Shown one piece after another: positions 47,558 to 49,518 of a DNA stretch of 64,000 bases. The DNA is from Aquisphaera giovannonii (GTDB taxonomy: Bacteria > Planctomycetota > Planctomycetia > Isosphaerales > Isosphaeraceae). The stretch's first letter is position 1, and every line of letters starts with the position of its first letter. A program made the position numbers and the translations under genes. The stretch spans positions 2,976,001 through 3,040,000 of the forward strand of contig NZ_CP042997.1 of the NCBI RefSeq assembly GCF_008087625.1, given 5' to 3'. A model generated the notes under the pieces. That model did no database searches. It was not told the origin of the DNA and was given only the letters and a program-made list of their open reading frames with translations.

Positions 47558-47836
47558 ATGCTCGATACGATGCAGGCCGTCGCAGCCCAGGGCGAGCTCT
47601 TCACCGCGGTCGTGGACCTCATCCATACCGCCTCCGCCAAGTCGCGCACCCAGGTCATCGCGCCGGGGTCGCTCCTGCTGGAGGAGCTGTCGCTGGACTC
47701 CCTGGATCTCGTGCGGATCATCATGCTGATCGAGGATCGCTACCAGGTCTCCATCGACCTGGACGAGGTGCCCAAGCTGAAGCGGGTGGAGGACTTGACC
47801 GCCACGCTCGCCCGCGAGCTGAGGGCCGCCGCCTGA
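47558..47836 (+). CDS. Acyl carrier protein
   Basis: A 92-residue helical protein. The phosphopantetheine attachment motif is in LSLDSLDLVRIIMLIED (Ser of DSLD). It is followed by the conserved acidic helix and EDRYQVSIDLDEV, ending in LATLARELR-like sequence. It would carry acyl intermediates as a thioester on a 4'-phosphopantetheine arm. It stands alone rather than in a fab cluster; the nearest partner is the ketoacyl synthase at 44.4-45.7 kb. The ATG at 47558 with GAGG upstream starts a normal-length ACP. A strong terminator follows 31 bp downstream. Confidence 0.85.
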   Translation: MLDTMQAVAAQGELFTAVVDLIHTASAKSRTQVIAPGSLLLEELSLDSLDLVRIIMLIEDRYQVSIDLDEVPKLKRVEDLTATLARELRAAA

Positions 47837-47866: not shown

Positions 47867-47916
47867 CGACGACGGCCGGGGCCGCCCGACGGGGCGGCCC
47901 CGGCCGTCGTCGTTTT
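47867..47916 (+). terminator. Strong intrinsic terminator after the acyl carrier protein gene
   Basis: A perfect 21-bp stem (left arm 47867-47887, right arm 47892-47912) with the four-base loop GACG is followed directly by TTTT. It lies 31 bp after the ACP stop codon and insulates the downstream sigma-54 promoter region from read-through. Confidence 0.9.
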
Positions 47917-47975: not shown

Positions 47976-48026
47976 TTCTTACACCGCCATTGTCCCGTTC
48001 TTACAGAGCCGGCAGTGCCGTTGTAA
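47976..48026 (+). promoter_or_regulatory. Phased TTACA half-sites, candidate enhancer-binding-protein sites
   Basis: TTCTTACA occurs at 47976-47983 and 47998-48005, exactly 22 bp apart, and an inverted TGTAA at 48022-48026 lies 21 bp further. Two-turn phasing about 165-215 bp upstream of a sigma-54 promoter is what activator sites for an NtrC-type (for example PrsR-like) protein would look like. The binding protein is not in the window. Confidence 0.4.
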
Positions 48027-48190
48027 CTCTTTCCTCCTCCGGCCCCGGAGCGTCAACTCGAAGGGCCGACATCGCCGCCGGGCGGGGGAACGGACGGATA
48101 TCCCTAAGTTCTTTGCAGGAAATGAACTGCGGCATGGTGTCGCCGAGGTCCCGGGCAGCCGGATGACGCGATCGTGACGGTTTCTCCGGA

Positions 48191-48206
48191 TGGCACGAGG
48201 CTTGCT
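48191..48206 (+). promoter_or_regulatory. Sigma-54 (RpoN) -24/-12 promoter of the PEP-CTERM gene
   Basis: TGGCACGAGGCTTGCT matches the consensus TGGCACG-N4-TTGCW at every defined position, with GG and GC ten bases apart as required. It lies 207 bp before the ATG at 48412 on the same strand. Sigma-54 control of PEP-CTERM genes with PrsK/PrsR is established in other bacteria. Confidence 0.72.
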
Positions 48207-48227
48207 AATGTATAAGAAGTATTGAGG

Positions 48228-48334
48228 CTCCCCGGGCGGCCAGCGGGGAGGGCGGGGTCACCGGGATCGATCCGAGGCGAAGTCAGGCCGGGCCGCACGA
48301 CGCGAGTGGTGGGCCGGGAAGTCGAGCTTCCCGG
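48228..48334 (+). promoter_or_regulatory. Two hairpins in the leader of the PEP-CTERM gene
   Basis: CTCCCC (48228-48233) pairs with GGGGAG (48245-48250), and CCGGGAAG (48314-48321) pairs with CTTCCCGG (48327-48334) with loop TCGAG. Both would lie in the long 5' leader made from the sigma-54 promoter. A regulatory role is only inferred. Confidence 0.35.
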
Positions 48335-48411
48335 GCAGGCGGGGTGGAATAAACCGAGTGTGCGGGGCCGCAAGGATGGCGGGCCCGACGGGTCGAACAA
48401 GGAGGTTGGTG

Positions 48412-49518
48412 ATGACCGGAATCAGGGCGTTGGCCGTCGCCGCATTGGCCATTGGCTCCTTCGGCGGCGCCGCCGAGGCTGCATCGCTCTCGTCCTGGTT
48501 CGGCTCGTCATCGCCCAACGCCTGGTATGCCAACCAGGCCAATAGCAACGGCGGCTTCTACGCCCCGGCCGGCGCCCCCACGGCCACCTATTCCAACGCC
48601 AATTGGGTCAACAGTGCCTCCTACATGTCGTCCCTGGGGACCGTAGCGGCCCCCGCGTCCGTCATCCCTTCGCCCGCATCCAATGCCGCCCCGGCCTCCT
48701 CGACTTCGACCTCGAATTCCCTGGGGAGTGCCTTCATCAACTTCGGCAACGCCCCGTATGCGGAGTCCTCCAACCTGACCACCGGCGGCGCCCAGGCCTG
48801 GTACAACAGCCCGGCCGTCACGCAGGTCTTCGGCGGGACGCCCAGCGCGGCCCAGCAGTCCAGCTTCCAGTCCGCAGTCCTGGCGGACATCGCCCGGACC
48901 TTCCAGATCAGCGGGCTGAGCATCAACCTGACCACGGATCCGAACGCCTACGCCACTCACGAGATGAGCGTCGTCTCGGGCACGTCCTACCCGGGGAACA
49001 CGGGCGCGATCGGCATCACCGACGTCGGGGCGAGCGGATTCAGCTTCATCGACAAGCTCAACTACGCCAGCACCCCCGACCAGCTCGAGTGGGCCGTCGC
49101 CCACAATCTCGCCCACGAGCTGATGCACGCCGTGGGGGTGGGGACCCACCCGGACACCACGGGGACCTTCCTCGACACGGCGACCGCCACGTGGTCGATG
49201 CTCACCGATCCCAACGCCAAGTTCAGCCCCCAGGCCGTGCAGATGATGCTGGCCGCCAATGGCGGCACGATGTCCGGGTATTCCCTCGGGGCGGAGCTCC
49301 TGAAGCTCGCCTCCCATCCCGCGAACTGCCATTGCCACTTCTGCCAGGCGATGCGGGCCATGGGACTGGACTCCAGCCTGATCGTCAAGGGGTTGGGCAT
49401 CGACGGCGAGCAGATGCTGGAGCAGCCGGTGCCGGAGCCCGCCACGGTCCTGACCTGGTCGCTCGCCGGGATCGGCGGCCTGGCATTCGCCCGCCGCAAG
49501 GCCCGCCGGGCCGCCTGA
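48412..49518 (+). CDS. PEP-CTERM sorted exported protein with HExxH metalloprotease-like motif
   Basis: A 368-residue exported protein. The signal peptide (about residues 1-24) is followed by a Ser/Asn/Ala-rich region, then a domain with HNLAHELMHAVGVGTH. There H235-E236-x2-H239-x2-G242-x3-H246 forms a zinc-protease-like site (HExxHxxGxxxH, one residue longer than metzincins). HCHFCQ near residue 306 adds a Cys pair. The C-terminus is a classical PEP-CTERM: PEPATVLTWSLAGIGGLAF, then an Arg-rich end, the sorting signal cut by exosortase. It should be a surface or extracellular-matrix protein. The start has GGAGG. A sigma-54 promoter lies 207 bp upstream. No exosortase gene is in the window. 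Confidence 0.82.
   Translation: MTGIRALAVAALAIGSFGGAAEAASLSSWFGSSSPNAWYANQANSNGGFYAPAGAPTATYSNANWVNSASYMSSLGTVAAPASVIPSPASNAAPASSTSTSNSLGSAFINFGNAPYAESSNLTTGGAQAWYNSPAVTQVFGGTPSAAQQSSFQSAVLADIARTFQISGLSINLTTDPNAYATHEMSVVSGTSYPGNTGAIGITDVGASGFSFIDKLNYASTPDQLEWAVAHNLAHELMHAVGVGTHPDTTGTFLDTATATWSMLTDPNAKFSPQAVQMMLAANGGTMSGYSLGAELLKLASHPANCHCHFCQAMRAMGLDSSLIVKGLGIDGEQMLEQPVPEPATVLTWSLAGIGGLAFARRKARRAA

Follow-up and report, generated by a model that had tools for sequence, protein, structure and literature searches.

The window, i.e., the whole 64,000-nt stretch of DNA analysed here, contains on its + strand a target gene (48412..49518) encoding a protein with a signal peptide, a metzincin-like domain (HELMHAVGVGTH) and a PEP-CTERM-like C-terminus composed of VPEP, a hydrophobic segment and RRKARR. 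All other features described below are on the same strand. The upstream neighbour (47559..47836) lies outside the unit and is acyl-carrier-protein-like, with an hmmscan match to an NCBIfam acyl carrier protein model (E 9e-10) that is under the curated cut-off. A terminator-like hairpin with a 20-bp G+C-rich stem and a TTTTC tail (47867..47912) divides the unit from this gene, in agreement with the preliminary description, which had placed a strong terminator between the region and the gene before it. Downstream of the terminator, two copies of the putative activator (UAS) half-site TTCTTACA (47976..47983 and 47998..48005) are 22 bp apart, and a putative half-site of opposite orientation, TTGTAA (48021..48026), is located 169 bp upstream of the -24 box, its TGTAA at 48022 being 21 bp past the second TTACA. 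Of the UAS positions, the latter shows the strongest conservation in the family, where the half-site reads TTGTAARAA / TTYTTACAA. This arrangement of repeats and inverted TGTAA, noticed in the preliminary description, is not confined to the window, as a genome of the same genus (G001, locus L084) retains all three half-sites with the 22/21 spacing. The RpoN (-24/-12) promoter element TGGCACGAGGCTTGCT follows at 48191..48206, supported by the pattern match and by conservation in orthologs. Its -12 box is 205 bp from the ATG at 48412. We infer a transcription start at ~48217 and hence a 5' leader RNA of ~195 nt (48217..48411).

TGGCACGAGGCTTGCT matches TGGCACGNNNNTTGCW at 12/12 defined positions, with the GG (-24) and the GC (-12) ten bases apart, and no other site in the window fits without a mismatch. 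Genome-wide, six exact sites were found in the 10.53-Mb genome and none with the reversed-pattern control, which bears out the earlier claim of a near-perfect sigma-54 promoter at this location. Our reading of the flanking ORFs placed all six upstream of, and oriented toward, a gene. The other five (L002-L006) precede a LEPR-like secreted protein, a PtsP-like gene, a small lipoprotein, a CsbD-like gene and a glycosyltransferase. The genome encodes one rpoN and ~15 full activators with high-scoring Sigma54_activat domains, so that both the sigma factor and the NtrC-type activators that the preliminary description had called for are present. The combination of RpoN with many activators is shared with the planctomycete RpoN regulon that was reportedly the subject of a 2004 study by Studholme and Dixon on Pirellula (cited in PMC12316311).

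A match of this kind may also arise by chance in intergenic DNA, in which case the -24/-12 match and the TTACA words would be fortuitous and transcription would start elsewhere. Consistent with this reading, one-mismatch RpoN sites are at the noise level of the genome (60 vs 60 in the control) and were not used, so that only a complete element carries information on its own, and TTCTTACA searched with one mismatch is by itself without enrichment in the window. RpoN sites with up to two mismatches are likewise at chance level in the window (7 vs 5.5 expected). The chance reading is contradicted by the family-wide comparison, for which we used 45 Isosphaeraceae genomes from 21 genera and found orthologs of the window gene in 43 of the genomes and 20 of the genera. 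The 900 bp ahead of the conserved part of 53 orthologs were scanned, with dinucleotide shuffles, the reversed pattern and the opposite strand as controls. An element scoring at least 10/12 was present in 36 of the 53 upstream regions, compared with 1.6 in shuffles, 1 with the reversed pattern and 1 on the opposite strand, these orthologs not being independent events owing to shared ancestry. The best score was 12 in 4 regions, 11 in 18 and 10 in 14. Between the motifs, conservation is absent (flank information ~0.1 bit), and the motif columns are high partly since the matches were selected, a selection that the shuffles underwent as well.

The activator half-site behaves in the same manner. 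TTACAA/TTGTAA is the top 6-mer upstream of the ortholog promoters (32/44 vs 1.8 expected), which supports the earlier proposal of TTACA as the half-site, and TTGTAARAA-like 7-mers are also enriched. TGTAA is mostly positioned -150 to -180 from the -24 box in the orthologs, and TGTAA or TTACA falls within -215..-140 in 32 of the 44 promoters vs 2.2±1.4 in shuffles. These positions are inside the range of roughly 80-250 bp expected for the activator sites of RpoN promoters. When both elements were joined in one pattern (TGTAA-N146-175-GGCAYN5TTGCW), the 45 genomes gave 61 hits vs 7 for the reversed pattern, and the only hit in the window's own genome was the window gene; ~15 further hits scarcely differ in number from the 7 of the control. 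Both elements are thus kept across the family at fixed relative positions, against shuffled, reversed and opposite-strand controls, and the chance reading, which we consider extremely improbable, is refuted for all practical purposes. The RpoN promoter at 48191-48206 is almost certainly real, and the conserved half-sites indicate that a dedicated activator recognizing TTGTAARAA very probably acts on it.

The recurrent second hit of the combined pattern is a gene for a CAP-domain protein (PF00188). In a Pfam scan of the G028 ortholog, this protein also carries an N-terminal LExRxLLS motif that corresponds to the PF07595 'Planctomycete extracellular' motif, with a match under the PF07595 cut-off. 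The CAP-gene upstream regions are more regular than those of the window gene: an element scoring at least 10/12 is found in all 28 orthologs with a complete, correctly placed upstream region, and two TGTAA words 17 bp apart stand at about -177 and -160 in most of them, and likewise in most of the further genomes examined. G002 appears to have neither the UAS nor the CAP gene. The CAP gene of the window's own genome, at C1:7105726, has TGGCACGTCGGTTGCC at 7105547 and TGTAA at -176 and -159. When 84,980 named genomes were scanned for two TGTAA followed by GGCAC-N5-TTGC, 25 stretches were obtained, about half of them from Isosphaeraceae or other Planctomycetota and the rest scattered, near the number that we had expected by chance. 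From the recurrence of the two genes, we consider a two-target regulon in Isosphaeraceae to be likely. The planctomycete study cited above (PMC12316311) makes no mention of Isosphaera-, PEP-CTERM or exosortase; the two targets and the TTGTAARAA half-site are therefore absent from it.

Two further conserved elements were observed upstream of CAP genes. A palindrome, AACTTTA-NN(N)-RAAAGTT, lies ~50 bp above the UAS, upstream of the TGTAA site(s), e.g., in L279, L282 and L151, and is perhaps another operator. In addition, TTGAC(A/G) is conserved directly past the second TGTAA (L153, L160, L151), in some cases with TATGG-like words 16-17 bp on, and these words might constitute a sigma-70-type promoter under the UAS.

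We also searched for the activator itself. Gene linkage placed a single activator close to a target, and this in one genome only, and no clustered TTGTAA sites were found ahead of the activator genes of the window's own genome. Most of the ~15 activators have orthologs in two comparison genomes (G031 and G040). An approach by coevolution of recognition helices with an altered UAS in one genus (g20) was dropped, as the CAP genes of this genus retain TTGTAA. One of the activators (L067, C1:1221680) contains membrane-spanning segments, a GAF-like region, an AAA+ domain and a Fis-type HTH; it is possibly an envelope-sensing one-component activator.

The C-terminus of the window protein, VPEPATVLTWSLAGIGGLAFARRKARRAA, consists of a PEP motif, a hydrophobic segment and a basic tail, and a PEP-like motif is present near the C-terminus of 53 of 54 orthologs. 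PF07589 and the NCBIfam models gave no hit to the window protein, and the PEP-CTERM assignment therefore rests on the motif. An AlphaFold2 model built with 35 orthologs has a pLDDT of 76 overall, with core blocks above 90 at residues 121 to 280. Foldseek placed archaemetzincin first (2x7m, E 6e-4), followed by ADAM, ADAMTS and MMP domains. The motif HELMHAVGVGTH exceeds the classical metzincin spacing by one residue and conforms to HExxHxxGxx(x)H. The protein is most likely a metzincin-like surface protein with a predicted PEP-CTERM anchor. In eight orthologs (L104, L106, L115, L116, L120, L122, L123 and L125), HELMH is replaced by HELML and the second zinc histidine is lost; judging from these substitutions, they may be inactive pseudoprotease paralogs. 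Most of the eight keep the promoter.

A PEP-CTERM gene preceded by an RpoN promoter and TTACA words recalls the PrsK/PrsR system of Proteobacteria, where a 17-nt motif ending in TTTACA is located ~63 nt upstream of the RpoN motif ahead of 99 of 167 PEP-CTERM genes (PMC1569441). The same motif was said to be absent outside Proteobacteria (Haft et al. 2006, PMC1569441). The preliminary description proposed that this planctomycete uses the same logic, and the locus does share several features with the proteobacterial system (PMC1569441; pepA of Aquincola, PMC9850573): the RpoN promoter, a TTACA-type motif that is sometimes repeated, and a PEP-CTERM gene that forms a unit by itself, with a large intergenic region. 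The exosortase that had been looked for is encoded as well, the genome containing 4 exosortase hits and 30 PF07589 genes. These likenesses would fit a true planctomycete branch of the PrsK/PrsR regulon, and the RpoN promoter with its half-site at one PEP-CTERM gene does stand family-wide. Membership in the regulon does not. In the 450 bp upstream of each of the 30 other PEP-CTERM genes, no RpoN match exceeded 8/12 (shuffles gave 0.6 at ≥10), so that the enrichment predicted beforehand came to 0/30 even at 9/12, and the TTACA/TGTAA words there amount to three strays. None of the 15 activators reached the cut-off of the PrsR equivalog TIGR02915 (502.6 bits; best 399.7), and by this threshold no PrsR was thus found among them. 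The activator site, compared by its half-site core, which is similar, lies ~155 bp upstream of the RpoN element here vs ~63 nt for the 17-nt motif in Proteobacteria. Finally, only one PEP-CTERM gene is involved here, and the second target is a CAP/Planc_extracel gene and not a PEP-CTERM gene. Hence we regard a true branch of the PrsK/PrsR regulon as highly improbable. The earlier interpretation is partly supported: the logic resembles PrsK/PrsR in its shared TTACA core, but three of the features tested speak against membership.

Compared with its shuffles, the complete leader folds moderately better (z -2.1), and it is rich in hairpins, in line with the preliminary description. The first of the two hairpins considered here (48363..48387), in the 3' part of the leader, is of the type GGGGCCGC-AAGGAUG-GCGGGCCC, with the GGA in the loop AAGGAUG at 48372-48378; it covaries in the orthologs and is a putative high-affinity CsrA-type site. 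The second, CGAAC-AAGGAG-GUUGG (48394..48409), holds the Shine-Dalgarno (SD) sequence in an ANGGAN hexaloop (AAGGAG, 48399-48404) and is a putative second CsrA-type site. In 50 of 52 orthologs, the SD has the form C-A(N)GGAG-G with a flanking stem, which is at least 3 bp long in 43. When the 3' arms were dealt among the sequences, the observed pairing was never reached (0/2000 permutations). The hairpin upstream of the SD hairpin by ~30 nt, of the CAGGAUG type, recurs as A(N)GGAN closed by at least 4 bp in 16 of 49 orthologs of the window gene, compared with 0.7 in shuffles and 2 on the opposite strand. With both hairpins aligned, the covariation score is 0.277 vs 0.155±0.017 for shuffles and at most 0.167 with slid partners, and changes on both sides of a pair number 52 vs 22.6 in the control. 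RNAalifold alone gave no consensus fold when run on the raw MAFFT alignment, in which penta- and hexaloops are mixed.

The CAP leaders resemble those of the window gene at the SD only. C-ANGGAG-G is found in 22 of 27 CAP genes, with 3-bp stems whose pairing is not above the same permutation test, and the CAP leaders show no enrichment of the upstream GGA hairpin (3/27 vs 1.5). An RNA model search recovered the leaders of the orthologs, with E between 5e-7 and 0.07 for most, and for the CAP leaders it gave no E below 0.3; Rfam gave nothing above a gathering score. The SD motif was present in 15 of 53 GGAGG starts in 21 stretches, 9 of the 15 being the two target genes, and in none of the 30 other PEP-CTERM starts of the genome. 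At a gene starting VRIGVDMLGVQSPHHGHRGI in S. acidiphila-type genomes (L174 ~17576, L179 ~17419), we also observed this SD hairpin, its stem being 6 bp long (AACGAC-AAGGAG-GTCGTT). This gene looks like an exopolysaccharide glycosyltransferase and, from its hairpin, would be a possible third CsrA-type target.

These loops resemble known CsrA sites. The SELEX consensus of CsrA is RUACARGGAUGU with the GGA in six-nucleotide loops, RsmE binds ANGGAN hexaloops, CsrB presents CAGGA(U/A/C)G repeats in loops, and in glgC one CsrA site lies over the SD and another in a hairpin just upstream (PMC7652899). The leader shares with glgC-type CsrA/RsmA repression (PMC7652899) the GGA site over the SD, the GGA-loop hairpin just upstream, the C-A(N)GGAN-G loops and the presence of CsrA. 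It differs in that its stems and loops are conserved across a family and in a surface-protease mRNA, that the leader is RpoN-driven, and that the CsrA family is expanded, the binding here being putative. CsrA paralogs number 7 in the window's own genome (e.g., C1:1759257, 2734358, 2928001, 1712686 and 7278976) and 4-13 in each of the 45 Isosphaeraceae genomes, and the copies that we read keep the MLVLSR start. RpoN promoters have been reported for csrA genes of Planctomycetia (PMC12316311); the csrA promoters of the window's own genome showed weak 9/12 RpoN matches only. A genome scan with GACANGGAGGTC gave 17 hits vs 14 in the control, and this lack of enrichment leaves a wide CsrA regulon with the exact site unsupported.

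The transcriptional part may also stand while both hairpins act without CsrA, either by exposing the SD in a loop as a standby or translation-enhancing element or by binding another protein. The pentaloop AGGAG, which replaces the ANGGAN hexaloop in 31 of the 52 orthologs, is not an optimal CsrA loop, and the CAP leaders retain the SD hairpin only; an SD exposed in a loop can simply aid ribosome access. On the other hand, the C-A(N)GGAN-G loop is repeated in the upstream hairpin, away from the SD, which is easily explained only by an RNA-binding protein; the CsrB repeat CAGGAUG has the same form, and csrA is multi-copy in every genome. We therefore hold this CsrA-free action to be a real possibility, at somewhat less than even chances, and by analogy with the known sites we put CsrA control of the window-gene leader at about even.

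Taken together, the region is, with high probability on the conserved sequence elements, the control region for a PEP-CTERM-anchored metzincin-like surface protein that would belong, with at least one other target, to a small Isosphaeraceae RpoN regulon. An NtrC-family activator would bind the TTGTAARAA half-sites ~140-215 bp upstream and loop to the RpoN polymerase at the -24/-12 element, turning the gene on, and the same module would drive the CAP-domain LEPR/Planc_extracel surface protein. The leader transcript would then display the SD in a small GGA-loop hairpin, with the second GGA-loop hairpin ~30 nt upstream, and a CsrA-family dimer would most likely bridge both hairpins and block translation until removed. 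The whole two-tier switch, in which a dedicated RpoN activator with TTGTAARAA sites controls transcription and the expanded CsrA family controls translation via the double GGA-loop hairpins, is tentative, and we place it slightly under even chances.

The 2006 account confined RpoN control of PEP-CTERM genes to Proteobacteria. The RpoN module of the Isosphaeraceae is independent and has a similar half-site. Rather than following the sorting signal, this module accompanies one protein that resembles a surface protease and one CAP protein, and it defines a small regulon whose activator code can be read. To our knowledge, very few operators are known in Planctomycetota, and the covarying GGA-loop hairpins are the first specific candidate mRNA targets that we know of for planctomycete CsrA paralogs. 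If the two-tier switch is true, RpoN and CsrA would form one conserved circuit outside Proteobacteria.
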